DNA of 64,000 nucleotides from Ceratodon purpureus (taxonomy: Eukaryota; Streptophyta; Bryopsida; Pseudoditrichales; Ditrichaceae): positions 22,134,771 through 22,198,770 of the forward strand of contig CM026424.1 in assembly GCA_014871385.1 (NCBI GenBank), in the 5' to 3' direction. Below, piece by piece: positions 14,401-60,800 of this stretch. The notes beneath the pieces are model-generated. The model ran no database searches, was not told the DNA's origin, and saw nothing but the letters and a program-made list of their open reading frames with translations. Both the position numbers and the translations under genes were made by a program. Position 1 is the first letter of the stretch. Every line of letters begins with the position of its first letter.

Positions 14401-15571
14401 ATGGGCTAGAAACTGGGCAAAAAATGATTAATTGTGAATGAAGAAGTAACAAAGTAGCAGGATTTAATTCACAAGTATAATGAATTTAGAAATCTGTAGC
14501 AGATTGAATGGTATCTGAAGATAATAAACTGCTGAAACATACTTGTGTTCTTTGAAAAAGAAAGACATTAGACTTTGGAATATAAACTTATACGTCTGGA
14601 AAGAACCTTGGATACTCAGTTGCTTATATTGGTTTTAGAATTATACAAGACTCTGTTAATGGTTGAACAAAATTCTAAGTATTGAAAAAACGGTGATAGT
14701 AAAGAAGTTCCTACAAAACAATTTACATCAAAATCTTCATATCTGGTAAAAGAACACTTCAGTGAAAATAATTAATAAAAGAAAAAAAAAATTAAAAAAG
14801 GCACTCGATCTGTGCGGGCGTGTAAGCGTGGTGGGGTGGGTGCCGGAGGGTGGATTCGAACCCGGCACCAGCACCCTAAGGCCGCCACGTCAGTTCGTAT
14901 CCGTAGCCTCGGAACACCAAGCCACCAAGGCTTTGACGAAAGGGAGTGTGTTCTGAGCATATTTATATCAAAACTGAGATCCAAAAAATCCAAAAAATTA
15001 AAAAATTAAAAAGTTTTGCGCCATCAACTGCGCTTCGAAAGCGTGGTGGGGTGGGTGTCGGAGGGTGGATTCGAACCCGGCACCAGCACCCTGAGGCCGC
15101 CACGTCAGTTCGTATCCGTAGCCTCGGAACACCAAGCCACCAAGGCTTTGACGAAAGGGAGTGTGTTCTGAGCATATTTATATCAAAGCTGAGATCCAAA
15201 AAATCCAAAAAATTAAAAAATTAAAAAGTTTTGCGCCATCAACTGCGCTTCGAAAGCGTGGTGGGGTGGGTGTCGGAGGGTGGATTCGAACCCGGCACCA
15301 GCACCCTGAGGCCGCCACGTCAGTTCATATCCGAAGCCTCGGAACACCAAGCCACCAAGGCTTTGACGAAATAGAGTGTGTTTTGAGCATATTTATATCA
15401 AAACTGAGATCCAAAAAATCCAAAAAATTAAAAATTAAAGAATTCTTCATTAGAACTTTAAATCTCGTATTCTGATTTATGCATAACTAATAAGCATCTC
15501 CTTGTTCCAAACTCGGGATTGCATAAAAAATTCGATTTTAAATTAAGCAGTGGACACCAAATTGAACATAG
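13611..15571 (+). repeat. Left arm of a large inverted repeat
   Basis: This 1,961 bp arm is the near-identical reverse complement of 32670-34413. Matching runs from ggattagttc at 13611 to acatag at 15571. The arms differ by about one 215-bp unit (three here, two in the right arm). High identity over unconstrained AT-rich sequence means a recent duplication or ongoing gene conversion. Confidence 0.85.
14800..15440 (-). repeat. Three tandem 215-bp units with a tRNA-like B box
   Basis: Each unit, read on the minus strand, contains ggttcgaatcc, a perfect RNA polymerase III B-box type sequence (14852-14862, 15067-15077, 15282-15292), preceded by ccttggtggcttggtgttcc, which could serve as an A box. 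Spacing between B boxes is exactly 215 bp. The units are joined by AT-rich linkers of the aaaaaatccaaaaaatt type. A tRNA-derived SINE amplified in tandem is the best guess; no complete tRNA cloverleaf is visible. Confidence 0.65.
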
Positions 15572-29493: not shown

Positions 29494-31695
29494 ATGGGGA
29501 AAAGCAAGAAACCACAACGAGTGGTTGTGCCAGCAGCTCAGGCAAGTTCTAGTGAGACTAGCTCCTTTGAAGCACCTTTGAGTTCTGATTTCATCAATCC
29601 TTCGATTTGGGCTGAGGCATTCGACTTGAGAGGAGTGGGTGAGAATATGCGGAAGCACCTCACAAGCGTGGCTCCATTTTTGCTTGGAGACGCCGCATGC
29701 TATAGCTCTGATTTTTTTGTTGACGTGGGAGGACTATGTGGTAGCGGCGTCCCATTCAAGCGACTCAAGGAAGAGCACAACCTGCCACTTGAAGCAATTG
29801 TGGGCACCTATCCGCTCAACAAGAATGAAAATCGCCATCCATTGCGGCATATGACAGAGGATGTTGCAGCGAGGGCACTTAGGATGTACCAGCGCGTTTA
29901 TGGGGGGACAGCTCCAGACAATGGCGAGTTTGGCACGGCATTTGTCAGGGGCTTAATGCTTGATGCCAAACGCTGGAAAATCAACTGGGCCGAAGGTGCT
30001 GCTGAGATAGCGAAAGTAAGTCTCCTTAATTTTGATGTATGTCTTCTCCTCGTTGATTTGGATCATATCATCATAGACTAACTGTTGCTTCTGTGTACGC
30101 AGAGCCGCCTCAAAAGTCCAGTGCTAAATCCAGCGAAGCTCACACCGCCGTGCTTGCGTGAGCAGATCCAGGCGATGCTGAAAGTGTTCAGAGCAGTAGT
30201 CGATAAGGTGGTACGCGAGAAGAATGCGGCAGCAAAAACCATCTCTGAAGGAGGTGTGCCGCGTCCAGGAGGTATTGTGCGACAACTACGTGCTCCAGAG
30301 CCTGAAGTCGAAGTGCCGATCCGGAAGTCACCTGTGAGCCGTCGAAGTGTGGTGGTCAAGGGTCCTGCTCCAGCTCCGAACTTGCTTCCGCCCACTCCTG
30401 CAACAGCCTCGGCAAGCAGTAAGAAGAAACCCCTTGAGGTTACTTCAGACACTGGACGCCAGAAGCTCGCCACCGTAGAGGGATCCGCATCTCTGCTGAA
30501 GCAACGGGACTTCAAAGAAGGATTACTCATCAAGATGAAGGATGAACTGGAGCGCGCTGAAATAGCGCTTGCAATGCGGGAATCTAGGCGACAGGAGTTG
30601 CAGCGGTTGGAGCAGACCAAGTGGGATGAGTTCGCTGGTATCCAACATTCCAAGCAAGCAATGACTTCGATGGATGACGCCGCTAAGAAGGTGATTGATG
30701 CGCGCCTGAGATCACTCATGGAGGATGCAGTTGCCGTGTCTACCAACCTGGCGACCCTGAACCCTGAGATTAAGCACTGGACCGAAGCTGCCGCCAATTT
30801 ACGTTCTCAGCTGCTGCAGCTTCAGGAGTCCATTAAGATACTTGAAGCAAAAATTGATGTTCTCATAGTTCAAGAGAGTTGTATACGCCCACAGCATCTT
30901 TATACAGCATTTCCTGTGAACCTTGGAGATGTGGTGCCGCTGAAGACGCACCTCCCCTGTGTGGGGTGCGGACGCTACTGGGCTGACATGGCTTTAGCAA
31001 ACCTCCCTTGCGGATGTCTTCTCCACCCAATATGTTTGTTCCAGGTCGCCCTCAATGCTTCACCATGCTGTCCTGGCTGCAATGCCAAGCCATGTGCTGG
31101 CTGGATGGGACAATGGGGCTTCAAGTCTGACTTTGCTACCGCACGCACTGCTGCAGCAGCGGTGAAGAGAGAAGGTTGGGCACCTCCACTGAGTCGCTCT
31201 GAAGCAAAGACACAATTCACAAAGCGGAAGACCACTGATGAACCGTCACCCCTGATCTCCTCCCCCAAGCGAGCTTGTCTTCCAGCACTGCTGGAAAATG
31301 GGCCCGATGACGAAGTGCTTGAGCACATGTCTGTGGAGCCTGCTTTTCCACCACGTGTCGATGCACCTGGTGTCACCACTAAAGCACCCTCTTGTGAAGA
31401 AGTAACTGTTCACAAGAACAAGGTCGTCGAAGTAGGAAGCGGCGCCACAACAGCAACGACGTGCGGAAAGCCAGGAGAGGCTGCTGCAAGTGATACCCTG
31501 AAGAAGTTAGTTTCCAAAGTCGACGATGCAGGCCACGACACGGCATCATCCCGCTGCAGCCCACTCGTAGATGCAAAACTTGAGCTGATCGTTGGAACTC
31601 CTCCTGGAACCGTGGATCCCGCCGAGTTAAGAGACATTGTGAACATTGCATGTGCAGCCGCAGCAGAAGCAAAATTTCCTACTACTCCAACATGA
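29494..31695 (+). CDS. Paralogue C: N-terminal domain, coiled coil and RING-like zinc module, 704 residues
   Basis: Exon 1 is 29494-30015 and exon 2 is 30103-31695, with a GTAAGT donor and CGCAG acceptor; they join in frame. The first 174 residues hold the family domain (SVAPFLLGDAACYSSDFF, VGGLCGSGVPF, YQRVYGGTAPDNGEFGTAF, KINWAEGAAEIAK). Residues about 290-460 form a long coiled coil. The zinc module (CVGCGRYWAD ... CGCLLHPIC ... CPGC) has the exact spacing C-x2-C-x13-C-x-C-x2-H-x2-C-x11-C-x2-C seen in B and D, followed by GWMGQWG. A 200-residue tail with KRKTTDEPSPLISSPKRAC, a possible nuclear signal, is unique to this copy. A RING-like fold would suggest E3 ubiquitin ligase activity, but the Cys/His order is unusual, so function is unproven. 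Confidence 0.8.
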
Positions 31696-32669: not shown

Positions 32670-34413
32670 CTATGTTCAATTTAGTGTCCACTACTTAATT
32701 TAAAATCGAATTTTTTATGCAATCCCGAGTTTGGAACAAGGAGATGCTTATTAGTTATGCATAAATCAGAATACGAGATTTAAAGTTCTAATGTAGAATT
32801 CTTTAATTTTTTAATTTTTTGGATTTTTTGGATCTCAGCTTTGATATAAATATGCTCAGAACACACTCCCTTTCGTCAAAGCCTTGGTGGCTTGGTGTTC
32901 CGAGGCTACGGATACGAACTGACGTGGCGGCCTCAGGGTGCTGGTGCCGGGTTCGAATCCACCCTCCGACACCCACCCCACCACGCTTTCGAAGCGCAGT
33001 TGATGGCGCAAAACTTTTTAATTTTTTAATTTTTTGGATTTTTTGGATCTCAGTTTTGATATAAATATGCTCAGAACACACTCTCTTTCGTCAAAGCCTT
33101 GGTGGCTTGGTGTTCCGAGGCTTCGGATACGAACTGACGTGGCGGCCTCAGGGTGCTGGTGCCGGGTTCGAATCCACCCTCCGACACCCACCCCACCACG
33201 CTTACACGCCCGCACAGATCGAGTGCCTTTTTTAATTTTTTTTTCCTTTTATTAATTATTTTCACTGAAGTGTTCTTTTACCAGATATGAAGATTTTGAT
33301 GTAAATTGTTTTGTAGGAACTTCTTTACTATCACCGTTTTTTCAATACTTAGAATTTTGTTCAACCATTAACAGAGTCTTGTATAATTCTAAAACCAATA
33401 TAAGCAACTGAGTATCCAAGGTTCTTTCCAGACGTATCTTTATATTCCAAAGTCTAATGTCTTTCTTTTTCAAAGAACACAAGTATGTTTCAGCAGTTTA
33501 TTATCTTCAGATACCATTCAATCTGCTACAGATTTCTAAATTCATTATACTTGTGAATTAAATCCTGCTACTTTGTTACTTCTTCATTCACAATTAATCA
33601 TTTTTTGCCCAGTTTCTAGCCCATTTAGAGGTAATCTTTTTTCAAGGCGTAGAACTCAATCCAATTAGAACAACTAAAAAAAAAAAAAAAAACACTGAAG
33701 CACTTCAAGGGTCAAAATAGTTTTCGTAATCGCTGAAATTTGAAGGAAACATTGAAGTGCACGTGCATCATTTGTGGATGGATGAAAACTAGATGACTGA
33801 AAATTGAAGTTTCAATGAAACATGAATGAGAACTAATTCTTCCTTAATCGGCTTGCACAGAACTCAATCCAATTTGAAGCATCTAAACCATAGGACGCTG
33901 AAGCATGGCAAGGATGAAGAAACATTAAAGAGACCCTAACTTTTGTGAACGATAAACGAATGAATGAAGAAGCCAGATTCGGTGAAACATGAATAAGAAA
34001 GAACACACCTCCAATCAGTGTGAACAGAACTGAACCCAATTAGAACCAAATAAAAATAACAAATAAAGCACTGAAGCATGGAGGCTCGATGAAAACAGTT
34101 TTCGTAATTACTGAAATTTGAAGGAAACATTCATATGTTATCTTTTAAGGGTGGATGAAAAATAGATGAATGAAAATTGGAGTTTCAGTTGAACATGAAT
34201 GTGAACTAATTCCACCTTAATCACTGTGCGAGATATAGCTCCCCAAGTAGAACCAAATAAAAAAAAAAGGCACTGAAGCATGGCAAGGGTGAAAACGGTA
34301 TCCGTTATTATGAAACTTGTAAGAAACATAACGGTGACCTTTTCTTTTATGGGTGGAGGTAAAACGAAAGATTGAAAAATGAAGTTATGTGAAACATGAA
34401 TTAGAACTAATCC
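32670..34413 (-). repeat. Right arm of the large inverted repeat
   Basis: This 1,744 bp stretch is the reverse complement of 13611-15571, nearly identical across AT-rich non-coding sequence. It contains two 215-bp B-box units against three in the left arm, which accounts for the length difference. The spacer between arms is 17,098 bp. Confidence 0.85.
32810..33230 (+). repeat. Two tandem 215-bp units with a tRNA-like B box
   Basis: B-box sequences ggttcgaatcc lie at 32950-32960 and 33165-33175, 215 bp apart, each preceded by the same candidate A-box region as in the left arm. Confidence 0.65.
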
Positions 34414-39221: not shown

Positions 39222-39630
39222 ATTCACTCTGTATTCTATCATTTGTATTACAATTAAGTTATTATTTTTTCTACGTGTTATCGGATTTATTTTATATGTA
39301 ATGTGAAGGGTTCATTATAAATCTATTAACTGAGGAAGCCCTCAAATGCATTAATGATGCCTTCCTAACCTTGTGATTATCCAGGACTACCTCTAATAAA
39401 TGCACTCCCTTCATGTACACAGAAAGAATGATTTCCGACAACTCCAATGATAAGAATTTATTGCCTCATGCATTTTGCGGCTGTTTGCAATTCTAGTCTT
39501 AACTTCGTGCTTGGTTACCTCTTGCGGTTCAGTAGCCAGCAATTCCATAGTTTAGCAAGTCTTTAGTCCATAGTTGAGCATCGTCATTTCCGTGTGGTGA
39601 AGATAGAAGTGTGTAGTGAAACTTGAGAGG
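38088..39630. other. Intergenic, divergent promoters and AT-rich satellite
   Basis: 38280-38370 is a GC-richer patch with ggcgcgcc and cccgcc motifs, possibly the promoter of the minus-strand gene starting at 38087. 38720-39110 is extremely T-rich. 39115-39217 is a dinucleotide microsatellite. 39500-39630 should hold the 5' UTR of paralogue D. Confidence 0.4.
39115..39217 (+). repeat. (TC)n followed by (TA)n microsatellite
   Basis: About ten TC dinucleotides change to about forty TA dinucleotides. Its length is likely to be polymorphic. Confidence 0.95.
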
Positions 39631-41106
39631 ATGACATCGAAGAGGAAGAAAGCTTGCAAGCATCATCGGACCAGGCAACAGCAGCGCGTAGTTGATGTTA
39701 GTGACGACAATAGTGGGTCCCGGAGTGATGGAGAGGGTGGAACTGATAGGGTTTTTAGCACAGAGGAGTTTGGAGACCCGATTAACCTCAATGACATGGA
39801 AGAGGGACTTAGACAGCGTTTGATAGTTGCGGCCCCAATGCTCATGGGGCGAGATGCTGTCAATGGTAGTGATTTCTTCACTGATGTTGTTGGACTATGT
39901 GATCAGGGGCCGGTTTTGAGGGATGTTTCCAAGGTTTACAGCTTCATAACTGATGAGGAGGTGACAAGTGTGTGGAAGGAGGGAGTCTCAAAGGGCCGTT
40001 ACGACTTCTCAAGGTGCCAGGATGAGGACCAGCTGAAGATGTTCGGACAGCAGTACTTCAAGGTGTATGGTAACAGGCCCCATAACAACTACTTCTGTCT
40101 TCGTTTTTTAAAAGCTTGTTTCGCAACTTTTATTCAACAGAAGCCTGTAAATTGGTGTGCGGAAGCTCTGGATCGACACCAATCACGTATAAAGAGCGCA
40201 TCCCGAAACCCATCTAAGTTAGGACCAGTCGCCACTAGATGCCAGGTGGAGGGTTTGTTGAAGATAATCAAGGAACTCTCAACTACAGATAAGGTTGAAT
40301 CCGGACCTGACCCTAATGCACGCGAGCTTCTAGTAGCAATAGAAGTAGAGAAAGAGAAGGCTGACATTGTGAAGACTATTGAAGAGCGGGTTCAGATCTT
40401 ACGGCTCAAGTACAACGACAGTCTTGAGAGGATGAGAGCGGAGTCATTTGAAATTGCTGAGGAGGATTTAAATGAGAGGTATGTTACAAAACAGAAGGAG
40501 GCTCGACAGATTCTTCGGAGTGTGGGTCCCACTGTCCAATACAAAGCCGCTGTTGCAGAATCTGAGAACCTATTCAAACTACTCGTTTATGTGAGGGAGG
40601 GTGATGCTCTTATCCGTGAGAACGTTGTTCAGTTGGAACTGGACTTGGCTAATGAAACTAATCTTTTGGAGAATGCCAAAGCAGAGCTAGAGTCTTCTGC
40701 GATGGTAGTCTCGACAGCAAGGGGGCAGATGCTCACTTTGAAGACTCCACGGGTGTTTCAATATCCTAAGCCTCCATCTGTACCACCACTGGGCTATGCT
40801 GGTAAGGAATCTTGTGCATATTGTGGCCTTGGATTTGTATGGAAAGCCGCTGTCCTCTCCTCATGTGGATGTTTCTTGCACCCTCCATGTGTTGCAGAAA
40901 TAATCTCAACCCAGATTTACCAATGCAAGGTATGTAAGGATATTCTCCTAGCCTCATCTCCTATCCATCTAACTGAGGCATGGGTTGCTCAATTCGGTGG
41001 CGTATTAAATCCACATCAGCAGATTGAGTGTGCAAGCTTCTCGGCCGTACTGGAAGTTGCAAGTGAATGTACTAATGCGCCTAAAAGTCTTGGAAGCAAG
41101 AGCTGA
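39631..41106 (+). CDS. Paralogue D: intact single-exon RING-like coiled-coil protein, 491 residues
   Basis: A continuous frame runs from ATG 39631 (MTSKRKKACKHHRTRQQQR), chosen because paralogue A starts with the aligned MTSRSKQ. The N-terminal domain, about residues 45-215, has VAAPMLMGRDAVNGSDFF, VVGLCDQGPVL, YSFITDEEVTSVW, QYFKVYGNRPHNNYFCLRF and KLGPVATRCQVEGLLKII. Residues 235-370 form a coiled coil. The zinc module at 395-435 reads CAYC ... CGCFLHPPC ... CKVC with the spacing C-x2-C-x13-C-x-C-x2-H-x2-C-x11-C-x2-C. After it comes AWVAQFGG. A basic N-terminus suggests a nuclear location. The swapped Cys-x2-His order differs from a standard RING (His then Cys). No function can be assigned; it is the best-preserved single-exon member of the family here. 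Confidence 0.82.
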   Translation: MTSKRKKACKHHRTRQQQRVVDVSDDNSGSRSDGEGGTDRVFSTEEFGDPINLNDMEEGLRQRLIVAAPMLMGRDAVNGSDFFTDVVGLCDQGPVLRDVSKVYSFITDEEVTSVWKEGVSKGRYDFSRCQDEDQLKMFGQQYFKVYGNRPHNNYFCLRFLKACFATFIQQKPVNWCAEALDRHQSRIKSASRNPSKLGPVATRCQVEGLLKIIKELSTTDKVESGPDPNARELLVAIEVEKEKADIVKTIEERVQILRLKYNDSLERMRAESFEIAEEDLNERYVTKQKEARQILRSVGPTVQYKAAVAESENLFKLLVYVREGDALIRENVVQLELDLANETNLLENAKAELESSAMVVSTARGQMLTLKTPRVFQYPKPPSVPPLGYAGKESCAYCGLGFVWKAAVLSSCGCFLHPPCVAEIISTQIYQCKVCKDILLASSPIHLTEAWVAQFGGVLNPHQQIECASFSAVLEVASECTNAPKSLGSKS

Positions 41107-42507: not shown

Positions 42508-43855
42508 GACACCCACTGGGAGAGAGGGAGAGGGAGAGGGACACGGGAGAGGGACAGGGAGTGAGGGAGAGGGAGAAGTAGAGGGAGTGAGGGAGAGGGA
42601 GAGGTAGAGGGAGAGGGAGAGGGACAGGGAGTGAGGGAGAGGGAGAGGGAGAGGGAGAGGGAGAGGGAGAGGGACAGGGAGAGGGAGTGAGGGAGAGGGA
42701 CAGGGAGTGAGGGAGAGGGAGAAGGAGAGGGAGTGAGGGAGAGGGAGAGGTAGAGGGACACGGGAGAGGGACAGGGAGTGAGGGAGAGGGACAGGGAGTG
42801 AGGGAGAGGGAGAAGGAGAGGGAGTGAGGGAGAGGGAGAGGTAGAGGGAGAGGGAGAGGGAGAGGGACAGGGAGTGAGGGACAGGGACAGGGAGAGGGAG
42901 AGGGAGAGGGAGAGGGAGAGGGAGAGGGAGAGGGAGAGGGAGAGGGAGAGGGAGAGGGAGAGGGAGAGGGAGAGGGAGAGGGAGAGGGAGAGGGAGAGGG
43001 AGTGAGGGAGAGGGACAGGGAGTGGCCACGAGGGAGAGGGAGAGGGAGAGGGAGAGGGAGAGGGAGAGGGAGAGGGAGAGGGACTGGGAGTGACGGAGCG
43101 GGAGATGGAGAGGGAGAGGGACAGGGAGTGGCCACGAGGGAGCGGGAGAGGAGAGGGACAAGGAGTGACGGAGCGGGAGATGGAGAGGGAGAGGGACAGG
43201 GAGTGACCGCGAGGGAGTGGGAGAGGGAGAGGGAGAGGGAGTGACGGAGCGGGAGATGGAGAGGGAGAGGAAGAGGGAGTGACCGCGAGGGAGTGGGAGA
43301 GGGAGAGGGAGAGGGAGTGATGGAGCGGGAGATGAAGAGGGAGAGGGAGAGGGAGTGACCGCGAGGGAGTGGGAGAGGGAGAGGGACAGGGAGTGACGGA
43401 GCGGGAGATGGAGAGGGAGAGGGAGTGACCGCGAGGGAGTGGGAGAGGGAGAGGGACAGGGAGTGACGGAGCGGGAGATGGAGAGGGAGAGGGACAGGGA
43501 GTGACCGCGAGGGAGTGGGAGAGGGAGAGGGAGAGGGAGTGACGGAGCGGGAGATGGAGAGGGAGAGGGAGAGGGAGTGACCGCGAGGGAGTGGGAGAGG
43601 GAGAGGGACAGGGAGTGACGGAGCGGGAGATGGAGAGGGAGAGGGAGAGGGAGTGACCGCGAGGGAGTGGGAGAGGGAGAGGGACAGGGAGTGACGGAGC
43701 GGGAGATGGAGAGGGAGAGGGAGAGGGAGTGACCGCGAGGGAGTGGGAGAGGGAGAGGGACAGGGAGTGATGGAGCGGGAGATGGAGAGGGAGAGGGAGA
43801 GGGAGTGACCGCGAGGGAGTGGGAGAGGGAGAGGGACAGGGAGTGACGGCGCTGA
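42508..43855 (+). repeat. GGGAGA hexamer array grading into a 76-bp higher-order repeat
   Basis: 42508-43130 consists almost wholly of gggaga, gggaca and gggagt hexamers. From about 43130 a 76-bp unit containing tgaccgcgagggagtgggag and tgacggagcgggagatggag appears; its gaccgc markers sit at 43205, 43281, 43357, 43427, 43503, 43579, 43655, 43731 and 43807 (76 bp apart, once 70). The C-rich strand is open over long stretches in two frames, giving artificial Ser/Pro/Leu proteins. It directly abuts the 3' end of the ParB-like/methylase gene. Confidence 0.95.
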
Positions 43856-43962: not shown

Positions 43963-46900
43963 CTAAGGTATGAACTCGTCGTCGCTCTCTTCTGCAATAT
44001 CATCTACAAAATAGAGTACCCTAGGATCATAATCCCTCTGATGGCTAGATGAGGAGCTTGAGCTTCTTGTGGATTCTGCTGCATATCGACAGGCGGCCTC
44101 TTCAGCATAGCAAGGAAGTTCAAGTCTCGAGCTCGTTGGTGAAGAATAGTTCCAACATGTAGTGGTGGTTTTCAAACTGAAGGAGAGAAATGAAGTTAGT
44201 CAATTACCATAACTCGAGTATAGAAGTATTATGAAACTCAAACGATAAAGAAATACGGACTTACTCACATAGATTAACCTCATCCTCCTCAGGTAGGTCT
44301 TCCTCGTAATCATCCTCTACCTCTTCATTTTGAATCAGCCGCACCTCGTTTTTCTGGGTAGATTCTTGAAGGGGGCGGAGAATTTCTTCAAATATGGACG
44401 CGTCAGCCTCAAGAGCAACAACGTGCTTGTTGCAGGATATGGCTGCACGGACCGAATTCCCTGCAAAATACATATCACGGTCAGATAACCAAGTATAATA
44501 CTGAAAAAAAAATTTAGGAGAAGATTAGTGTCAAGGAACCACTCACCTGTGCCAGCAGTGAGGTCCGCCACAAGGCCGGCTCTTGGACAAAGTCCACCTA
44601 TGAGAAGCTGCATGAGAGGCTCGGATTTCTCCTTGGGACCTCTCCAGAGCTTCTCATCCGACTTTCTCTTGAGTGCATTTTCTTTGGTGATGACATTGAA
44701 AAGTACGTCATCTTTGAGAAGATCAACGTTCTCAAAGCGGGGATCGGTTGTAATCACAAGCTCCGCAGGTTGCCGTTTAGAGGAGTCACTTTTCGATCGA
44801 ACGCACACCATAGCCTTAAACTTGAGAGTCTGAAATACCAAATTTTAAGAGACATTAGAATGTGCTCAAACTTCGAAATGAGAAGTACACAGTATCTTAG
44901 AGAGTATGAATACTGGAAACTTACCAATTCTAAAGAATCCAAAGGATGAGCTAGATGGAGGGAGTTGATGATAGTCCATTCTCTTTTCAACGTCAGTCTG
45001 TTCTTTTTGAAGAAGCTCGAAATCTCCTTGCCGGTGACAACACTGTCAGGGTAGAATATGAGTAATGCTCCATCGTCGTGAAGATACCCACCGCAGAATC
45101 CTACGGTGTATCTGATAAAATCCTTCACTGTTGCATTCCAGTGGGGGACATCTGTTGCTGAAGTAGAGATTCCCGGGACATGACTTCCATCCGGGAAATC
45201 TGCAATGACCAGGTCCACTGCTGGCTTCAGGAGAAGCTTGCCATCGAAGTAATACTCTCGACCTCCACCAACCTAACATCATATTATAAACTTATTAGTT
45301 AAGGCATTCGAAATGAAAAAGAGATTTACAAAGAGTAAACATTGCTGGTAGAGAGTAATTTACCTTTGTCATAAAGGCCACCATGGAATTCCAAGTCTCA
45401 GGAAATTCCTTGTGCTTGTCCTTGTATGCCATGATCGCAGGAAAGGAATCATTAATGACGAGCACATCCGAGGAGGGTAGGGTTGAAGAGCCAGGCTTGG
45501 CAGCAACCATGAACTTCATCGAAGGGGGAGTGAAAGCGTGTTTTGATACTGGGAGGCTTGTTGATGCTGGGGCCGTGACTGCTGGGCGCTTGGCCTCTGG
45601 CTCAGTTTGACTTCGATTGTCAAGCTTTTTGGTCACAGCAACCATGGCTTCGATGTCCTCCTCCTCCTCGTCATCAAGAACCTCAACTACCTTCCTCTTC
45701 TCTCCTCTGCTTCTAGCAACTTTTCCTTTACCTCTTGATGTAGCCGCAACTTTCTGGCTAGGTGAATTGGATGCAGGGCCCGAAATTGCTGGAGCCGGCA
45801 TCTTAGATAGAGCGGGTTGGAGTGAGTCACGGAGTTCAATGTCAAAGGCAGGTGGTTTCTTCACCGGGCAGTCAAGGTACCATCCGCAACTGTCATAGTG
45901 ACATGGGTCCCAGACTTTCGTAATCCCGGGAGTGAACATAGTGTCTGGATGGGTGGTATCCAAGTAATTTGGAAAAAAGGCCGGGACTCTAGTCACAACC
46001 TTTCGTTTTAGGAGAACATACTTGAAATACCTGTACAGGGTTCTTCGTAAAGCCTGCTGAAATCCCGGTTGTTGTGCCGAAGTCTTGTTCTTATGAGCTT
46101 GGTCCTCCCCGGTGAACGCCCGGAAAAATGCAGTATCCCAAAGGGAGCATCGCATCTCCTCAACCCAGTCGAATATTGTAGGGATAACGTTCTCACTCTC
46201 TGGAGAATAATTTATCGTAACCCCTAGGTCCGTTAAAACACCTTCAAATAAGATCTCTGCCTCATCAGCCAACTGCAAACAAAGATCGTTGGAATTAATC
46301 CATGACTTGAATTCCAGAAATCATGTGTCCAAGAAACTTCTAATCTCACAATATAAACTGAAGCACATCAAAAATAGTCGTTGCCTTCTAAAGCAATGCG
46401 TCAACCAAGACTAAGTGCCGGCACCGGCACTTAGTTGAACGCCAACCACCACTATCATCCTCATTGGTTTCCAGCTATAGTAAACGACTGCCGGCACCGG
46501 CACTTAGTTGAACACCAACCACCACTATCATCCTCATTGGTTTCCAGCTATAGTAAACGACTGCCGGCACCGGCAGTTCTAGTGAAGAAGTCAGCAGATG
46601 GAATCTTCCACCACCGGCATATGAATAGACAGTCACATGGCATCATAACTCTCACCAATATATTGCTGTCACAGACAAGTGCCGGCACCGGCACTTGAAT
46701 ACTCACTCACTCAATCTAAATACTCGGTTCCCTAGAGGGTTCACGCTACTCTGGTCCGCGCTACTCTCAGTAAATTTAGGCTCACTCATTCGTGATGGAT
46801 CTTGAATTTTGACAGATTTCAAACTCTTGGCTTTGACTCCTCTCTGAATCTGGGATACCAATATATGCAAAGCGTCTTGAAGATCATGGTTATCGATTCT

Positions 46901-49900
46901 CTGAAGGACTATGAGGTTTGGTTAGATCGATGACTATGACTTGTCAAAACCAGGACCTGCTAGCGAACGCACACAACTGATGACTGTCCCTTATTAAACG
47001 ATGTTACTGAACGATGTTACTCTCCCTTATTAACCAACAACAAATTACTTCATTATTGTATTAGAGCACTCACGAATCACGTAGCAGATCAGTGTCACTC
47101 ACGCTACTCCCTCACCCACTCACATTTCCGGCAAAGAGAGTATCCAATACCAACTGCCGGCACCGGCAGTTACAAAGGGGTTAAAAACACATGCAAATAC
47201 AACTGAGAATGAACAAAATAATGAACACTTGATCGGAGTAAAAGGGGTTGTATAAAATTACTTGTGCCCACCAGGTGGCTCGATGAAGCCAAGGTAGGAA
47301 CACGGCATCTCCAAAATTTTCTTTTGGAAACTTGTGACCCTCTCTTATAGCTTTTGGAGAATTCCATCCCTGTAACCACTTGATTTTCATTTTCACGGGC
47401 ATCGCTGACAGGGCAAACATCCATAGTTTTTCTTGTTGCATCTCCGGTTGCTCAAATTTTTCGTAATGTTGCTTCACTTGCTCAAGAAAGGCCGAAGTTT
47501 GAATGGGATCAGCAATAGGAAGAAGTTTCCTAAGCTCAGCCTGAAGTGACTTTTCAGCACTTTTTACGGTTTTATTGACCCAGTCGTCAACAGACCTGCT
47601 CGTCCACTCATTTGATTGCGGGAATCTTTCATAAAACCTTCGCTCAGCGGCAGCAGCGGCTTCTCCAAGCTCTGTCTGTAAATTAAAATCATTTGCTTAA
47701 GGTCAGTAAATTCTGATTAACAATAACAAATTAAAATAACCAGATGAACAAATTGTACTTACTTGATAAAGTACAGCATTCAGCGCCTCCACTGTAAGCG
47801 TATACCAGGTTTTTTTCGGGCCCGACTGCTTCTTTTTAGAACTCTCCATAGCTGCTGGAGAAATTAGTTTCTCAAAGTACGAAAAGGGTTGTGGAGCGAT
47901 CCTCTGAATTCGAAACAGTTTGTGCACAATGTTTGTGGCTACATGTGACTTTTGATTCCTCCTGCGGAAGTTCGAAAGAGCACTTAGAAATCTATTTCTA
48001 ATATCAAAGTTGGCAGTCGAAAAAAATGAAATACTGGATGATTACTCACCAATTAACCTCATGAAGGGCAGTAATCACGGATGGGACATCACCTTGTGGA
48101 TCAAGTACAACACACTCAACTTTGTAGTGCCAATTGATGTTGTCGGAATGGTATTCTTCAATTATTGGCATCCATGCTTGAAGGCGATGGTTTCCATCCC
48201 AAACCATAAACATCTTGTTACTGAAAACCTTTAAATCAGGATCAGACCTCAATGACTCTTCAAAGTCGTCGTTCACCTCCAACAAGTGCTGACTCCACTT
48301 CGCTGTAATTGAAGGTGTGACATCAATTGTATGACCGTTGTTGTCCTCAAGAGCAACATAAAAATACCCATTGCCATCCATGTAGCCACAAGTTGTGAAA
48401 TGAGAAGCCAATTGGGAGACGTCATTCTTCAAATAGGGTCTAACCACAGGTAGGGATATCATCCTGCACAAGGGAATAAAAAGACGCCCTTTCCATTTAG
48501 GTTCCCACTTCAGTTGTTCCAGCCTCGAAGCAGTATTGACGGTCTCTTTGGCCACCAAATCATGTAACTTTCTCTTAACCTGATGGCCGGATAAAGGGAC
48601 TTGGGGCTCATCTGACTCCTTCTCTTTCTGGCTACCTCCTTCACTAATGGAGGAGTCTGTAATACAAGTTAGCCTAAGTTAGAAAAAATATTTAGAACTT
48701 AAAATATATTTTGCAAATAAAAATCTAACTTAATAAAACTGCCCGCACCACCAGTGCTATTACTGTCGATATGAGCAGGGATAAGTTAGAAGACAATCAG
48801 TAGTTCAGAGCAGTGCCGGTGCCGGCACTACTCAAAGAAGGAAAAAACGAACATAGAGATCAGTCGACAACATTGAGAACATCATATATTCAGTTACCTA
48901 CAATACAACATGCATAACATAATGATTACAAAATGACTCCAGAACCTAACAACGAACAGGATGCTTTGGCATCAACACAACCAAAGTGCCTTCAAAAACA
49001 ATCCACAAAAGAACCGCCGGTGCCGGCACTACTCAAAGCAGAAAAATACGAACATAGAGATCAGTCGAAAACATTGAGAAAAACATATATATCAGTAACC
49101 TACAATACAACATGCATAACATAATGATTACAAAATGACTCCAGAACTTAACAACGAACAGGATGCTTTGGCTTCAACACAACCATAGTGTCTTCAAAAA
49201 CAATCCACAAAAGAACCGCCGGTGCCGGCACTTCTTTGCATTGCCCGGGTGATGAAAATTTAATGTGCACTTGAACTGTTCAAGGTTGCACCGATTCCGT
49301 TAAATGTAGGACACTCACAGTCCAAAGGGTATTAAAAAGAATAGCCGGCACCGGCAGATGTCTTAGAAGATTAAAATCAGCCAATATTACTGTACAATAT
49401 ACGTGAAATACACTTTACCGGCACTTACGATAATATTGGAGGTTGATATTTAGCTGTTTCAAGCAATGCCGGCACCGGCAGTAAAGAAAGTAGCCTTAAA
49501 TTGACAATACACTAATCTCACCTGTTACTGCAAGCAAGAATCTCTTGGAGCCAATGCCGGCACCGGCGGTTCTAAATCGACACGAGTAGCAACATTTTAC
49601 CACTAACCAGAGCTCGGTTCTGAACGCCATGCTCCACAAAAATTAACATATTCTATGTACATAGAACTGCCGGCACCGGCAATGCTAGTGAAGGTCCGAA
49701 TAACCATGTGAACTCGTTGCCTAATTCTTCTCCGTCTTGTACAGTGGGCTGACTGTAGACTAATGGCTCCTAAACAAATGACATTATGTTTCTCATATTA
49801 TGGAACCGCCGGCACCGGCACTACTTGAGAAGGGATGAATGTTCCTAATTTTCTAATGATCGCATTGCTTGGGATGGTCTACGTTTTGTTTTATTATCTT

Positions 49901-51317
49901 GTGAACTTGCTGTCTACGATGCCCTCTAAGGAACTGCCGGTGCCGGCAGTTCCTTTTATTCCAAAAATGCATATCGATACTCTACTCGAAACTTACTGCT
50001 CTCGGGAACCGCCGGCACCGGCACTCCTTATCTAGACAATTAAAGACAGACCCAATCATCCTCAAATCACGCAGTCGAGCTGCGCCTCACAAACGCATCC
50101 GTCTCAACTACCAAACCACAAACAAACAAAACCTAAAAAATTGAGAAATAAGAAATTCCGAAGCTCCACCTCTCACCGCAATTCCCCTGCGAAGCATCAT
50201 ACCCTAACTCGAGGCCACAGACCTGACCTTTATCGCAACGAGCCTCCATCGGATAAGCAGCTTTTGTGAGGCATCACAGTAACCGCCGGCACCGGCACTT
50301 GTTATGGAGGTCTAGAATTGCCGAAACCTAATTCGAAACTATCCTCTTCTATGCAAGAATTTCTTTGGAGGGCAAGCGCAGTAGAGCACCAAGACTGAAC
50401 TCTAAACTTGCACTAGGCTTTGAAGATGGGAAGCACTACAGCGATGCAAAGCAATCAAACGAGAACAGAAGTGAAAAAATGCAAACAAAGCTCACCTTCA
50501 ACATGCTCGCGATTTGAGTTCCCATCGTTGTCGCCGTCAGTCTCTTGTCTGGATCTTTGAGTGCACGGCATCTCCTCCTCCTGAGACCCTTTAGAGATCT
50601 CCTGCTCCTGAGTCACTTTCGACATCGCTGCCGCCTTCTTGTTGTTAGCCGTCTGGGAGTCGACAGAAAAGCAAGAGGTAAGCAGAAATTAGGGATTCGC
50701 GACAACAAAAGAACCTTCTGACTGAATGATAAAATGAAGTCCAGATATTGTAAAACGAACCCTACAACGGAGCAAAACTTTTGAGTAACGCTGGAGTACC
50801 AAGTAAACACAAAGACGAGGAGACAGTGGAAGATCCGCTAGCAGGACCTAGCTCGCGGCAGTTGATTCAAAAAAGAGCTCTAGGTCTGTTTGCGACAATA
50901 TAATAAACTATTACCTACGGAACCCTAACAAGAAAGGACTCTGAATCGAAAGATTGATAGTTGAGAATAGGAGTCTTAATCCACATCATGACTTGATAGT
51001 TGAGAGTGCATTCAAGGGGTCAGATTAAAATGCTGGCCATTACATACCTTTTCACCACTACTGTTGTTGGAGGTAGAGTCCGAAATAACAGGTTTCTTCG
51101 ATTTACCACGACGCTCATATTGCTTCGTGCTTTCGTCCTCTCCTTTCTCTACCTGTGAAGTTTCGGCCATTCTATCGAAATCTAATGTTTTGGCCACGCC
51201 AGCCATCTCAATCACGGCGTCCTTCTTCTTCCTCCCCATTCTACTAGCCACTAGCTGCCTCTTAGTACTATAATAAAACTTGCCTCTCTTCTTCCTCTTC
51301 CTAGTCTCAGCTTGCAT
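43963..51317 (-). CDS. ParB-like domain fused to a class-beta DNA amino-methyltransferase-like domain, 10 exons
   Basis: Exons: 51317-51048, 50652-50496, 48656-48050, 47961-47763, 47675-47262, 46272-45364, 45272-44925, 44829-44547, 44460-44265, 44176-43963. All have GT..AG borders and sum to 3,597 nt, an exact multiple of three (1,198 residues). Exons 1-2 are basic (RKRKKRGKFYY, MGRKKKDA), probably nuclear. Residues about 225-370 resemble ParB/sulfiredoxin-like domains, with VWDGNHRLQAWMP at 294-306. Residues 549-850 are low complexity with an acidic run and a CHYDSCGWYLDC patch. Residues 853-1110 follow the class-beta order: motif IV region VDLVIADFPDG (871-881), motif V GYLHDDGALLIFY, motif X EKSEPLMQLLIGGL, motif I ADLTAGTGNSVRAAI (1057-1063 core), motif II VALEAD. 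Motif IV lacks the usual (D/N/S)PP(Y/F/W), so catalysis is uncertain. ParB-methylase fusions are known in phages and prophages; here the gene is spliced and eukaryotic. Confidence 0.7.
46273..47261 (-). repeat. Intron 5 with five copies of palindromic GCCGGYRCCGGC
   Basis: Copies lie at 46417-46428, 46490-46501, 46563-46574, 46681-46692 and 47156-47167. The first three are 73 bp apart within a tandem duplication. Flanks often extend the dyad (aagt..actt or aact..agtt). A half-site (accggca) is present near 46610. Confidence 0.9.
48657..50495 (-). repeat. Intron 2 with eleven copies of palindromic GCCGGYRCCGGC
   Basis: Copies start at 48815, 49016, 49218, 49344, 49468, 49556, 49669, 49808, 49936, 50011 and 50285. 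Those at 48815, 49016, 49218 and 49936 read GCCGGTGCCGGC, the rest GCCGGCACCGGC. The first three share an approximately 201-bp tandem duplication, but the others sit in unrelated sequence. A half-site lies near 49417. The surrounding intron is AT-rich, so the 12-mers stand out. Confidence 0.92.
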
Positions 51318-51996: not shown

Positions 51997-54949
51997 ATGG
52001 CTCATCTCCCTGCAGACAGAGTGTTAGGCATGGCCGTGCTGAGAGCTCATGGTGTTGGTATTCCACTTACAGTACGTGTAGATGAGGATGGCTTGGCCCT
52101 TGTGACGGCACAACGCCTTAGCCTCAGATTTCACTTCAGAGAGGAGACTGTCTGTTTAGAAGAAGAGATTTATGACGATGAGACAAATGAAATTATACAT
52201 ATGCTAGATCAAGTTTCTGAGAAAGATGATGACGATAACAGGTTCTGGAACCTTTATCCTGGTAGATACAGAGTTTATGGTCTTACAGAGTCCCAGATGC
52301 AGGCGTCTACTGAGATTCTAACTCCTCGTAGATCATCTACAGTTCAGACTCCTCTGCCTCGTGATGTGAAGGTTAAGGTAGAGCCTGGCTTGGACACTCC
52401 TGATGTAACACCAGTCATCTCACTCTCCTCAGATGAAGAGTCTAGTCCCCTGAAGGCATCACCTCCTTTGCCTAGAGAGACTGTAGTATCTAGCACGCCA
52501 GCTACACTACCTGATAAATGTGCCAGTACCTCACAGACATCAAAGGATGAGACGGTCAATGTACTCCCACTCATTAGGACACTAGCTGGGAGACCTGGGA
52601 GGAAAAATATTCTGAAGAGAATAGATTTCTCCACGGTGCGTCAGGAGAAGGTGGAATACTTACCTGCAGTCTTCAACAACAATGTGATATTCGAGCTCCC
52701 TCCAGTTGGTGACGGGGCTTCCAAGACGCAAGCGAAGGCTATGAAGGGGATGGACAAGCGTTACGACGGCCACGTTTGGACGAAGACAATCACTACCAAC
52801 ATCACAAACGAGTTTGGCCTGTCGTTCCGCTACTCCAGCTGCGTTGGTTGGCTGCGGTGCGTCAACAAAGAATGTGAATTTTTCAACCGTCGACCTCGAA
52901 TCGTTGCGACATGCAATCCGAGGACACTGAGGCTCAGCTGGTCTTCTGGAAGAACTTAAACAGCGTTATGGAGAGGAATGGCGTTGCAGCGCCAAACTTC
53001 AAAGGGTTCATGGCGGACAATGCACAAGCAAATTGGAATGCGGTTCGTATTCTCTACGGAAACGGCAACAAAGAAGACAAAATGGAGGATCGGGAAAGGT
53101 CATGCTTGTTCCACTGGACCCAGAACATGGTCCAGTACACTGACAAGTACTTCCCCGAAGAGCTCCGGGAACAGCACAAGAAGATGTGCAACCAGTATAG
53201 GACAGCAACGACTTTGACAGAGGCGGACACTCTTTATCACGCGTTGCAGGCTTGGTGGATATCTACTGGGGTCCTGGGAGAGAAGGCCCTAACCAATCTA
53301 GGGACTTGGCTCGCATTCTGGCACCACCGCTATCGTCAATGGGGTGGATTCATGTCAGCGGTATGATGCTACTAAACCCTGCTGTACTTGTTTTCTGTTG
53401 AGGTAAATTTAATGGAAATCACCTCTATAATTGATTCTAATTATTGTAATTGCTCAAACTGCAGAAATTTTCTGAAGAAGAACTCACAGAGATGCCGACC
53501 TGTAACCTTGCCGATACAGTTCACAATAAGTGGTTACAAGCATCAGGCAACAACGGCAGCGACCTCTATGTTGCGACTGTGGACGATTACGTTCGGGGCT
53601 TTCTGCAGGTTGTAAACTACTACCAGTTCCTGAAAGGAGATGTAGGCGGAACTGGACCTTCAAAGAAGGAACTCAAGCTTCGAATGGCGGAACGCTTGGC
53701 GAAGAAAACAGGAAATCCTAAAGTCCTTAAAGATCCCATGCAGGATATGCCTGGTGCAGATGAGTTCTGCACCCGTCAGCCTGTCCTGGCTGGAGCAGAG
53801 GTGTTTGGATCACAGAAGCGTAAGGCGGACGTTCCCATCGGAGCTGACGAGGAGTCACACCGACCAGACAAGGTTAACTTCTCACGTCCTAGAGGTGTTG
53901 GACGCAACGTTCGAGCTCGCCCTGTCCAGCTGCCCATCATCGTCGAGGACGATGCTGAAGAAGAAGAGGCCCAAGAATCTCCCGCCCAAGAAGCTTACAC
54001 GCCCCCAACGTCTCCTGTGAACGAGGTCGGCGTTCGCCATGTCAACGCTGTTGAAGAAACCAAGGTTGATGTGAAGGAGTGGCACATTGCAAGACTTCAC
54101 AAAGCTTCTGCAAAGTGCTGCTGGGCCCAAAGAGCTGGTACAAAAAAGAAGTGCACTGAGAGAATCGTCAGGGGCCCAAACTTCACTGCTGCACCGACCT
54201 ACACCGGAGTTTGGACTAACTATCGCAGGAATACGGTGGAGAGGACAGAGTTTTTCTTCTGCTCCGATGATATTGAGCGCTGCGTGAAAGGCACAAGGCG
54301 CAAGTGGGTTGCACACTACTCCAAGGACCTCGAAGTGCCGCCGATTCCAGAGGTGTGGCCAGTAAAACTAGGTACTAACCTGAAGCTCATTGAGATCCTC
54401 GCCCTTGAAGCCGCAGGGTTCCAACTCCCGCCGAAGAAGCCAGTCTCCCCAAGACGTCTCTTCTCGTCTGCTCCTCCTCCTGCAAACCTCGCTTCGTTGC
54501 CGATTCCAGCAGAAGCTGACCGCTACCCTGGTAAGCGAGATGGGAAGATGGTCAAACGCACAGCAACTCGACCTAACCCGGCGCAGCGACTCTCCATGGG
54601 CTCCTCTCAGTCTCTCAAGGCTCGCCTCCGTTTCATCACCATGATACCTTATCCAGGCCATGGTTGCATCATCGGGCTGGATTCGGGCGTTGCTCCAAAC
54701 ATCACACAGTACAACATCACCATCACCTCTTACCCGAGTTGCAATTGTCCAGCATTCAGGAAGACGATGACTAAGTTTCGAGGTAAGATACAGTTTTCAT
54801 ACTGTAAACATATTTATTACATCCTTTTGAAGGTCTGCAACCGCAATCCGGAGGCCGAGCTTTTCATCCATGCGCCTACCTTTAGTTTCAACGAAGTCAA
54901 GCTAGTCCTAGAGAACGGAATCTTGACACACCCTTTGGCTAAAAAGTAG
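51997..54949 (+). pseudogene. MULE-like transposase gene with a lost central segment
   Basis: The frame starts at ATG 51997 (MAHLPADRVLGMAVLRAHG). Residues 1-245 are partly acidic and low complexity. About 255-310 resemble a GCM/WRKY-type zinc domain (GHVWTKTITTNITNEFGLSF, SSCVGWLRC, KECEFF). At about 52890-52905 the sequence jumps frame directly into RCDMQSEDTEAQLVFW and FKGFMADNAQANWNAVRILY, the second catalytic-Asp region of MULE transposases, so the part with the first Asp is missing. An intron at 53361-53464 joins FMSA to KFSEEEL. The C-terminal part, to 54949, has acidic linkers and ends with a SWIM zinc finger (CNCPAF ... YCKHIYYILL). Terminal inverted repeats were not found. Family is secure; activity in this form is unlikely. 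Confidence 0.75.
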
Positions 54950-57289: not shown

Positions 57290-57556
57290 TTTAGTAGTGG
57301 CCCACGGTTATAGGGTATACTCTTCTTCAGAAAAGTTGATGAAACGTAGTAATTCTGCTCTCCAAATCTTCGCTCGCCGCTCTCCGCTCGCCGCTCGCCG
57401 CACGCATGCTAACTTTCCCCCGTTTCTGTCATGTTTCCTCGCCAATTGTGCACATTGTCATGCTCCGTCCATTGTTTTCAAAGTCCACCTGCCTCAGTGT
57501 TATATGCGCACTAACATGTACTTCGTTGACGCTGTTCGTAGGTCTCGGCCACAGCC

Positions 57557-58902
57557 ATGGACTCTCTGGGGCTCCCTGAGAATGCCATTGCATTCACATT
57601 GTGGGTCATGCTGATCATTTTGAACACGACGGAAGCTCCGACCTTTCAACAGTTCCTGGATTACGAGGATGTTGAGGATGACCATGTACTTGCCATGGCC
57701 GAGGGTTCCATGACCGAGTACTTCATGCAGACAATGAGATGATGGCCACTTTGCATCACTTCCGATTATCACTGGCCTATTCATTTTTGGATGATGAGCT
57801 CGGATTCTGGGTGAAGCCCAGATCGACTACTTGGTTTTCTAGGTTTCTCCTCGAGCAGTACGATAAGCAGAGATGGGTGGAAATGTTTCGGATGACTAAA
57901 CCTGCTGTGCTCTCACTGTAGGAGGTGCTGCGGCCTCATGTGTCGCGTGAGAACACGAAGTACAGGCTTGCGATACCGGTTCTAATTCGAGTAGCTTGTA
58001 CTCTATTCAAGCTTGCACATGGAGCAAACCAAGCCCTCTGCAGCGAAATGTTTGCGATTGGTCGCAGTACCGTCTCAGTTGTCTTGAGAGACGTTGTCGA
58101 CGCTGTGAACGAGACATTGAGATCTGAGATTATGTGGCCGACAGGCGAGAGGCTGCGTGAGACAGAGGCGAAGTTCCATGCTCTCTGTGGTCTCCGAGGA
58201 GTTGTGGGAGCGATTGACGGGACTCACGTTGGTATTTCCAAGCCAAGTTACGGGGCCGCTGATTACTATTATTTCAAAACTAGAGGATATACCGTGAACT
58301 GCCAAGCAGTTGCGGACAGCGAGAAGAGGTTCATTGATTTATACCTGGGGATGCCAAGTAGTACCAACGACGCCCGCATGCTCCAAAGGTCTTCGCTCTA
58401 TAACTTGGCAATGCAGCACACCATACTGGGACCGAACAATGTTGTGCGGGGTTTTACACCGTACCTAATTGGAGACTTGGGCTACCCCCTCCAATCTTGG
58501 CTGATGATACCGCACAAGACGACTCGCCAAATTTCTGTGTCCGAGGCCCTTTTCAATCGAAGGCTGAGACGGGGCCGAGTAGTTGTTGAGAACGCGTTTG
58601 GTATCCTTAAGCAAACCTTCCGTGAATTGCTCTTTAAATCTGAGTTACATGTGGCCTTCATTCCAGACGTGATTCTTTGTTGCGCTATATTGCACAATAT
58701 TCTAATGGAGGGGTCTCATGAAGAGGTGGAGGACCTGCTCGAAGTTCTGCGAAGTGAGGGCATGGATGGGGCTGTTGATGATGTGGACGAGGCTCCTGAT
58801 GTGGCCGACGCTGTGCAGGAAGACACACCTGCACCCGCTGCGAATCAGAAACGCACGGAACTGGGCCTGTACTTGTCCATGCAGCGCCGTCCGAATCCTT
58901 GA
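57557..58902 (+). pseudogene. Harbinger transposase with a frameshift and one in-frame TAG
   Basis: The core frame 57925-58902 has the DDE residues in family context: D in VVGAIDGTHVGISKP, D in MPSSTNDARML and E in VVVENAFGILKQTF (positions 98, 149 and 222 counted from 57925). Just upstream, 57739-57918 encodes LDDELGFWVKPRST ... WVEMFRMTKPAVLSL in the same frame, separated only by TAG at 57919-57921. A further 5' piece from ATG 57557 (MDSLGLPENAIAFTLW) ends at a TGA overlapping 57739 in another frame, implying a frameshift near 57740. Length without the breaks is about the usual 400-450 residues. The C-terminus is acidic. The transposase family is secure. Confidence 0.85.
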
Positions 58903-59305
58903 GACCAGCAGATTCGTCACTCCAGCCCTTCCCATTGACGTTCAAATTCATTTCTTTATGTCGTCTTCAGTGTGTATGTATTTGACAATGCGATTACTCA
59001 TTGTTTACTTTCGTGGCAGAGCAATCAAGCTAGGCAGTACACAACTAATGCATCCGAACTGATAAGCCATAATTCAATAGTCATAATGTGATAGTATAAA
59101 TAAACTGTAGGAACACATAACGAACCTTTATGTAGAATGAGAAGGAACACAGTGCCGATAACAGATCCTAACAATGCATATTGGGAACTCATGATCTGGA
59201 CCTATATGTGCAGGACTGACGGCTGGGTAGAGGGAGGAAGGAGTCGGGTAGAGTAAACAAAGATGAAAGAAGAAGGGGTGGGGACGGGGTTCGTGTTGCC
59301 TAGAA

Positions 59306-59333
<28 letters not shown>
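59306..59333 (+). repeat. Run of 28 G
   Basis: An uninterrupted homopolymer within the 3' convergent zone of the Harbinger element. Its length may be a sequencing or assembly approximation. Confidence 0.9.
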
Positions 59334-59336
<3 letters not shown>

Positions 59337-59414
59337 CGAGATTAGAAAGCGGTGGCAGTGAGGCTCTTCACGGGGCCGCTGTAGCACATACCATCCAGCG
59401 TAGACCGCATACCA

Positions 59415-60800
59415 TCAAAGCAGTGACACAGGATCGGTAGTGTCGTCGTTAGCAGCTTGGCTGCAGGTTGCATCGTCGTTTGATGAATGCTGGTCAGGTC
59501 CTTTCCTTGCAGTACCAGATTCAGGATTTGTAGATGATGGTGCCCGTTGAGCATACCCGAAATGTGGGGATGTGAAGACGGCGCCTTGCCGAGGGATTGC
59601 TTGGCCAGGATACACACGAGCACTTGCTCCATTGTACTCCTGCTGGCCAACACCGGCCCTCTCTCCATGTGCTTTTGGGCCTGACATGCTGAGCCCCCTG
59701 CTCAATACAGTTGACAATTGTGCTAAATACCCGACCATCTCCCCTTGCTTCAGTATGGCCAGTCTCGCGTTTTCATTGGCAAGTGCCGCATTCTCATACA
59801 TACGTCTATCTTTTTCTCTCTGATACTCCATCTGCTCGGAGAAAATCTTCAACTGCACCTCAATTTTTGAACGTTCCATCTCACGGTTCGCGGATGCGAT
59901 CTCCTGCATCTGTACGGCCATGGCAGTACCTGTCGCCTTTGTAGCTTCGGCTATTACGGAATGCCCAGATATATTCTTCCTGCGTACCACGGTGTTGCCT
60001 GGTCGGCGATGCACAGTATACTGGGAGTTCTCCGATGAACTCATGACCTGTGGATTAATGCCTGCCGGCACTCCAGTGAAAGGCCGTGATGCAGGGCTAC
60101 CGTGAGCATCTGCTTGCACCGGATGACGAGGGGTTGTGGGTGCACTCCTCCGCTATGAACCTGCAGGTGAGGACTCCTCCGTAGTTTCTACTGGTTCAGA
60201 ATGCGGACCTTCGTGCGGGTCCTCTGTTTCAGTTTCACTCTGAACCTCCTCCTCTCCTTCTTGTGTAGCATGCGAATTCTGTCTGTAATTGTCGTCGTTG
60301 TTTGCAAGTAAGTCTCGAACATGTGGTGGCTGTATCTGTGGTCGATTGCCAAACCATTCATGAATGGCATAGTACACATCCTGAGCAAAAAGACGGGGGA
60401 GACCTTCACCTTTCCTCTCGGCAGAGTTCAACTCCCAATAGTCTGCTGAATTCCGCCCAGTCCGGCTGAGGTAGTCTGCAATCTTTCTGTAGTCATGAAT
60501 GAGTTGATTCCACTTTGTCTTGCAAGCTGGTCCATCACGCGGACATGGTGAAATGCCTAGACGCATAATCTGAGTAGACACCCGTTGCCATTTGCTGGTG
60601 TCCGGGGTCATTAAATCCCGCCTGTCAACTGTGTCTAGTTCTTCGAGGTACATCTCCCTCTTCGCAGCAATGAGTGCGAATACTTCTTGAGGAAGCCAAT
60701 TCGGTCCTCTATCTTTTCTTGCACGCTTTGCACGGCTGGGCCCTGTGGACTGGGAGGGAACAGGTGCTGGCCGTACCACTCCCGCAACGCCATTCGCCAT
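59415..60800 (-). pseudogene. Harbinger Myb/SANT-like protein with one in-frame TAG
   Basis: A frame from ATG 60800 to 59415 (461 sense codons) is interrupted only by TAG at 60153-60155. Residues 25-150 form a trihelix Myb/SANT-like DNA-binding domain: NWLPQEVFALIAAKREMYLE, WQRVSTQIM, CKTKWNQLIHDYRKIADYL, SADYWELNSAERK and FAQDVYYAIHEWFG. After the stop, the same frame continues with a coiled coil (MQEIASANREMERSKIEVQL, ILKQGEMVGYLAQLS). In Harbinger elements this protein binds the ends and helps the transposase enter the nucleus. The clean continuation on both sides of the TAG argues for one recent nonsense change rather than two genes. Confidence 0.8.

Follow-up and report, generated by a model that had tools for sequence, protein, structure and literature searches.

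Why should a moss gene carry 16 copies of one near-palindromic 12-mer, GCCGGYRCCGGC, in 2 of its introns? The gene lies on the minus strand of a 64,000-nucleotide stretch of the Ceratodon purpureus genome (contig CM026424.1, positions 22,134,771 to 22,198,770; hereafter the window), where its spliced open frame runs through at least 9 exons from 51317 to 44269, the 3′ end at about 44269 being uncertain. Its predicted product has ParB-like and methylase-like parts, the methylase match (PF01555) falling below the cut-off, and it is the accessory gene of a giant DNA transposon of 49,103 bp. The palindromes are probably self-recognition sites of this transposon, read by a protein that the element itself encodes, most plausibly the ParB-like/methylase-like one, in a role resembling that of VANC in the VANDAL transposons of Arabidopsis.

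All 16 copies in the window are exact, compared with 0 in 100 dinucleotide shuffles. As the original prediction, made from the window sequence, had described, 11 are located in intron 2 (48657–50495, minus strand) and 5 in intron 5 (46273–47261, minus strand), while none was found in introns 1, 3, and 4 or in the rest of the 64 kb. On the plus strand, the centre reads CA in 12 of the 16 copies and TG in 4, and no other centre occurs; deamination of a central CG as the source of these 2 centres was weighed through CpG ratios only. The intron 5 copies are all in plus orientation. Three of them form the left edge (46417–46428, GCCGGCACCGGC), the middle (46490–46501), and the right edge (46563–46574) of a 73-bp tandem array, and the others lie at 46681–46692 and 47156–47167. 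A second array, of 201 bp, is found in intron 2 and contains 3 copies in minus orientation (TG centre on the plus strand), 2 at its edges (48815–48826 and 49218–49229) and one in the middle (49016–49027). The fourth TG copy (49936–49947, minus) forms a 28-bp palindrome when its flanks are included, and the remaining copies, all in plus orientation, are at 49344–49355, 49468–49479, 49556–49567, 49669–49680, 49808–49819, 50011–50022, and 50285–50296. Both of these previously noted duplications are real and are bounded by motif copies at either end, so that the middle copies, 46490 and 49016, are products of recombination, which leaves 14 independent positions.

More than 6 bp away from the core, the spacers are no more alike than shuffled sequences (380 pairs, mean score 11.55 versus 11.48). 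The repeated unit is therefore the palindrome itself, which bears out the earlier statement that most copies sit in unrelated sequence and rules out a leftover of some longer repeat. The immediate flanks are partly conserved, with an A at −3 in 27 of 28 half-sites and a T at −1 in 22 of 28. No copies with one mismatch were found in introns 2 and 5, and the sole match with 2 mismatches overlaps a perfect copy. A scan with a 24-bp matrix returned 16 strong sites at 27–37 bits and a single weak one, a possible degenerate motif with 3 mismatches at 48741–48752 (plus), whose score of 13.7 was also attained by 2 of 30 random sequences; all others scored 5.4 or less.

Across the 362-Mb genome, GCCGGYRCCGGC occurs at 901 places and its reversed control at 727. 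The raw count therefore proves little, and it is the arrangement in clusters that is telling. Among the first 50 of the 901 places listed, 48 fall into 6 clusters (T1–T6) and 2 are single. All 6 clusters fall in relatives of the accessory gene, as found by tblastn, with T6 matching part of exon 3 only; one of the 2 single places (L011) gave no match to the accessory gene. Abundance of the motif without a link to this gene family, which the original prediction had named as speaking against it, is contradicted by these listed places.

A search with the exon-3 protein yielded at least 150 scored matches from 1868 first-look candidates, out of which 20 copies spanning 61–98% identity were picked by hand, their intron content unseen. 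Every one of the 20 carries palindromes of the form GCCG-NNNN-CGGC, 4–16 per copy in the 2.3 kb upstream of exon 3, and none in exon 3 itself (11.3 kb). Adding T1, T1a, T2, T3, and T4, which were taken from the clusters or from beside them, gave a set of 25 copies with 250 such palindromes in 57.5 kb, versus 0 reversed controls, and with at least 3 in each copy (25/25). Within the window, the form is absent outside introns 2 and 5. Palindromes are spaced about 106 bp apart in T1a and several other copies with a TTAA centre, and 2 tandem arrays are found among the 14 independent positions of the window. Many of the family matches are located on the 110.5-Mb contig C6, possibly a sex chromosome.

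The centre of the palindrome differs between subfamilies, being GYRC in that of the window, TTAA in others, and GCAA/TTGC in 2 copies (L040 and L041), and it tracks the tree of the accessory protein. When 26 exon-3 proteins are placed on a tree, with the mixed-centre copies T3 and L039 labelled by their largest class, the centre label changes 4 times, compared with a mean of 10.8 and a minimum of 6 in 2000 shuffles. The conserved half-site is ACTGCCG, variable in its first 3 letters and followed by G or T; the common half-site across subfamilies is close to ACTGCCGG or ACTGCCGT. Among 261 palindromes (the 250 of the 25-copy set and 11 from the window), the ends of the 2 half-sites pair as T/T in 127, G/G in 92, G/T in 37, and otherwise in 5.

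These subfamily-specific centres bear on the possibility that the palindromes are binding sites of a host regulator, forming an enhancer within the introns by which the element drives its own expression. Palindromic sites clustered in introns would suit such a regulator, as would the fact that intron 2, which holds 11 of the 16 copies, is close to the gene's 5′ part. A single host factor, however, would not easily follow a centre that differs by subfamily. Moreover, GCCGTTAACGGC occurs at 1460 places in the genome versus 6 for its reversed control, and the first 50 places listed all lie in or near family copies: 15 in family sequence (L032, L045, and L046), 5 next to a piece of the transposase-like gene described below (L044), 27 others no more than 5 kb from an exon 3 among the listed matches, and 3 (C1:14853917–14854175) at a distance of 20 kb from one. 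A literature search on whether LOB-type binding sites of plants could account for the palindromes gave nothing useful. We regard a host regulator as unlikely.

The cores change more slowly than the spacers. Four close pairs of copies, i.e., those whose introns differ by at most 16%, have 12 core mismatches in 483 aligned positions. This is about threefold fewer than the 37.6 expected from a neutral simulation in which the ascertainment of the cores is taken into account, and 0 of 2000 draws were as low, so that the cores appear constrained. Fifteen further pairs were not used, their introns being more diverged, and most of these agree in direction. Between L010 and L027, exon 3 is close (synonymous divergence, dS, of 0.09) while intron 2 can hardly be aligned, which may point to rapid exchange or rebuilding of entire introns.

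Two explanations that invoke the palindromes as hairpins can be weighed against these data. First, they may act in RNA, where hairpins or mutual pairing would fold the long introns for splicing or give rise to small RNAs. The sites do lie in transcribed introns, and 5 of the 9 copies that were folded, out of 16, had z-scores of −2.0 to −3.8. The other 4, however, ranged from −1.05 to +0.44, and the core sequence itself is nearly fixed within a subfamily, beyond what pairing asks for. Hairpin arms with covariation were rejected, as none was found between copies, and a role in RNA is very unlikely. Second, the palindromes may be neutral or selfish hairpin repeats spread by recombination. This would agree with the motif copies that bound both tandem arrays, and short palindromic repeats have indeed spread in the organelles of Volvox, where they are described in both orientations in introns (PMC2670323). 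The Volvox repeats have other sequences, however, and are described as filling intergenic and intronic organelle DNA, while those reported here belong to one nuclear gene family. Given that the motif is limited to one gene in the window, that its cores evolve slowly, and that its centres follow the phylogeny of the element, we consider this explanation highly improbable.

The transposon that carries the accessory gene extends from 8318 to 57420. It is bounded by terminal inverted repeats at 8318–8381 (minus) and 57357–57420 (plus), which form an 86% inverted match over 64 bp, and by a target-site duplication of 10 bp, CGTTTCTGTC, whose left (8308–8317) and right (57421–57430) copies are identical. 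Alignment of the copies showed sharp element ends, with which the left end of the window element aligns, and inverted repeats of about 65 bp. Four other copies, T1–T4, measure 18–23 kb from end to end and have duplications of their own, of 10 bp in T2, T3, and T4 and of 10–11 bp in T1; T5 has no clear duplication, and the T6 element is incomplete. Compared with T1–T4, the window element has its inner genes inverted between the 2 end types, with the transposase-like gene nearest the opposite end, and the 10-bp duplication is still perfect.

This transposase-like gene (51997–54949, plus strand) forms a divergent pair with the accessory gene (51317–44269, minus strand), which it accompanies in 5 of the 6 cluster relatives (T1–T5), and we infer that its product is a transposase. 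Compared with T1, T3, T4, and T5, the gene in the window is short of about 750 bp at 52903–52906. A Pfam scan of its open reading frames in the window gave no match, including none to the transposase of Mutator-like elements (MULEs); the longer relative in T4 gave a SWIM finger below the cut-off (E 0.053) and likewise no MULE match. The 10-bp target-site duplication is within the range of 8–11 bp given for Mutator-like elements (PMC6446971). As no MULE transposase was recognized, however, the element was not assigned to this group.

Short repeats that serve the transposase can be present in DNA transposons, and the palindromes might accordingly be internal sites at which the transposase-like protein aids transposition. 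In the TTAA copy L046, 3 palindromes lie within the transposase-like gene itself, in one of its introns, and the same holds for the copy beside T1. However, the palindromes are intronic and lie kilobases from the ends of the element, which have other sequences. The original prediction had also named, as speaking against it, a motif that is the end of an unrelated short transposon; the palindrome is not the end of this one. We consider sites for the transposase quite unlikely.

The original prediction had named the gene ParB-like/methylase; matches to DndB and PF01555 hint at this identity, but both are below their cut-offs. DUF6551 was matched in 1 of 21 copies (E 0.29), no ParB was present among the PDB matches to the profile, and searching PDB with the methylase part returned weak unrelated matches only. 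A DGNHR stretch, which we take to be a ParB-like feature, is invariant. The glycine-rich motif reads AGTG in the window and in 3 of 4 aligned copies, and PGTG in T1a. At motif IV, methylases usually have the catalytic tetrad [DNS]PP[YFW]; this tetrad is absent here, the position reading [DE][FYI]PDG in the window and in all 6 other copies, so that a binding rather than a methylating protein is at least as likely. No helix-turn-helix was found with Pfam in exons 3 and 6–9 or with PHROGs in exons 3, 5, 6, and 7, and no relatives of exon 3 were found in viral contigs. The ratio of nonsynonymous to synonymous divergence (dN/dS) was computed on 8 pairs, 5 of which allowed dS to be estimated. It was 0.26 in the closest pair and 0.03–0.05 in 4 more, one of them with dS near saturation, and by this measure the protein is under strong constraint.

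The motif had been proposed to be the protein's own binding or methylation site, acting in autoregulation. The link between motif and gene family holds, but plain autoregulation is too narrow for a gene that is cargo of a giant transposon, and a methylation site is doubtful given the methylase match below the cut-off and the missing tetrad.

Several other features of the window were observed. Within the element, downstream of the accessory gene, lies a GA-rich minisatellite (42518–43849) with units of about 38 bp and strong strand asymmetry. Tandem repeats of 215 bp are present at 14824–15439 and 32802–33203, seemingly related in opposite orientation, and one of the 2 contains, by eye, a stretch resembling a tRNA B-box; Rfam and tRNA scans of the window found nothing. 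Three open reading frames (11152–12006, 29494–31695, and 39616–41106) appear by eye to form one unnamed family with a cysteine-rich, RING-like end, and the member tested with Pfam (39616–41106) gave no match. Just beyond the right end of the element, 57925–60800 encodes a DDE_Tnp_4 transposase (E 1.2e-29), presumably of PIF/Harbinger type, and a further open reading frame on the opposite strand to it (60153–60800) looks SANT-like by eye.

The best-supported inference from these sequences is that some protein of the element reads the palindromes. In VANDAL21, one of the VANDAL (MULE) transposons, VANC21 binds the motif YAGTATTAY both within introns and in other noncoding sequence, while VANC6 binds another motif (PMC5735166). 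Both systems have a transposon-borne accessory gene, clusters of motifs in introns or other noncoding DNA, and motifs that differ among related elements, a set of features that makes the present family VANC-like (PMC5735166, PMC10398659). Tandem repeats form around the VANDAL motifs, and the 2 arrays of the window may correspond to these. They differ in that the site described here is a palindrome with 2 half-sites, the element is 18–49 kb long with inverted ends, and the plausible reader is ParB-like/methylase-like. The likeness is one of gene and motif features; VANC proteins bind their motifs and remove DNA methylation. In the moss family, a dimeric protein encoded by the element would bind the 2 half-sites, the most likely reader being the accessory protein whose own introns carry the arrays. 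Binding at the arrays might then shield the genes of the element from silencing by the host, as VANC does for VANDAL. Each subfamily would change its protein and sites together and thereby serve only itself, and sites may multiply through tandem duplication and turnover within introns, where they do no coding harm.

A number of observations weigh against this reading. The methylase match to PF01555 has an E of 0.0014 and 19 bits, compared with a curated cut-off of 26.7, and the best ParB-like match, to DndB, has an E of 0.065 and 12.7 bits, compared with 29.1, and is seen in 4 of 21 copies. The single-sequence structure of exon 3 was uninformative (predicted local distance difference test, pLDDT, of 39) and was not used for a fold search. 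Mixed centres occur in T3 and L039, and the reversed control of GYRC is itself unexpectedly common across the genome (727 versus 901). The constraint test used 4 of 19 compared pairs, with the limit of 16% chosen after the table was seen, and several of the 15 pairs set aside, such as L027 with T4, have cores about as diverged as their spacers because positions no longer correspond. Finally, GYRC arrays are confined to the accessory gene in the window, T1 (main copy), T2, and T4, while VANC motifs are also intergenic and terminal.

A more specific scheme is suggested by bacterial ParB-parS systems, in which palindromic sites are clustered beside the ParB gene. In a eukaryotic counterpart, a ParB-like/methylase-like dimer would load at the intron palindromes of its own subfamily and spread, protecting or marking the whole element, and protein and half-sites (in the combinations GG, GT, and TT) would change together. 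The palindromes described here are likewise clustered beside a ParB-like gene, and ParB-methylase fusions occur in phages (ParB-fold survey, PMC12704722). Here, however, no helix-turn-helix or C-terminal dimerization domain was recognized in the exons searched, and the sites are eukaryotic and intronic. Loading and sliding, features of ParB, are putative for the moss protein, and we regard this scheme as possible but rather doubtful.

Among giant algal transposons, a protein with the same 2 predicted domains has been described in Ectocarpus. Sola1-1_Ec32 is a 21.5-kb element encoding a protein of 1104 amino acids, ParB-like with an N4C/N6A methyltransferase, from a gene opposite to the transposase, and in the authors' view proteins of this kind may bind to the element that encodes them and modify it (PMC12477816). 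The moss family shares with it the giant element and the opposed gene pair, and differs from what is described there in its 10-bp target-site duplications, in domains that remain below cut-off, and in a candidate target with subfamily-specific forms. Our literature search found no target sites for ParB-methylase transposon proteins, although 2 reports cited in PMC12477816 may name some. ParB-methylase transposon genes are thus already in print, and what is new here is a candidate target and its coevolution with the protein.

The palindromes provide a precise, testable target for one family of ParB-methylase transposons, in which naturally occurring forms of the site correspond to naturally occurring forms of the protein. 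If the proposed recognition is true, these pairs of site and protein would be a supply for epigenome work, and sequence-specific self-recognition by transposons would have arisen outside VANDAL, by means of a different protein and a palindromic site.

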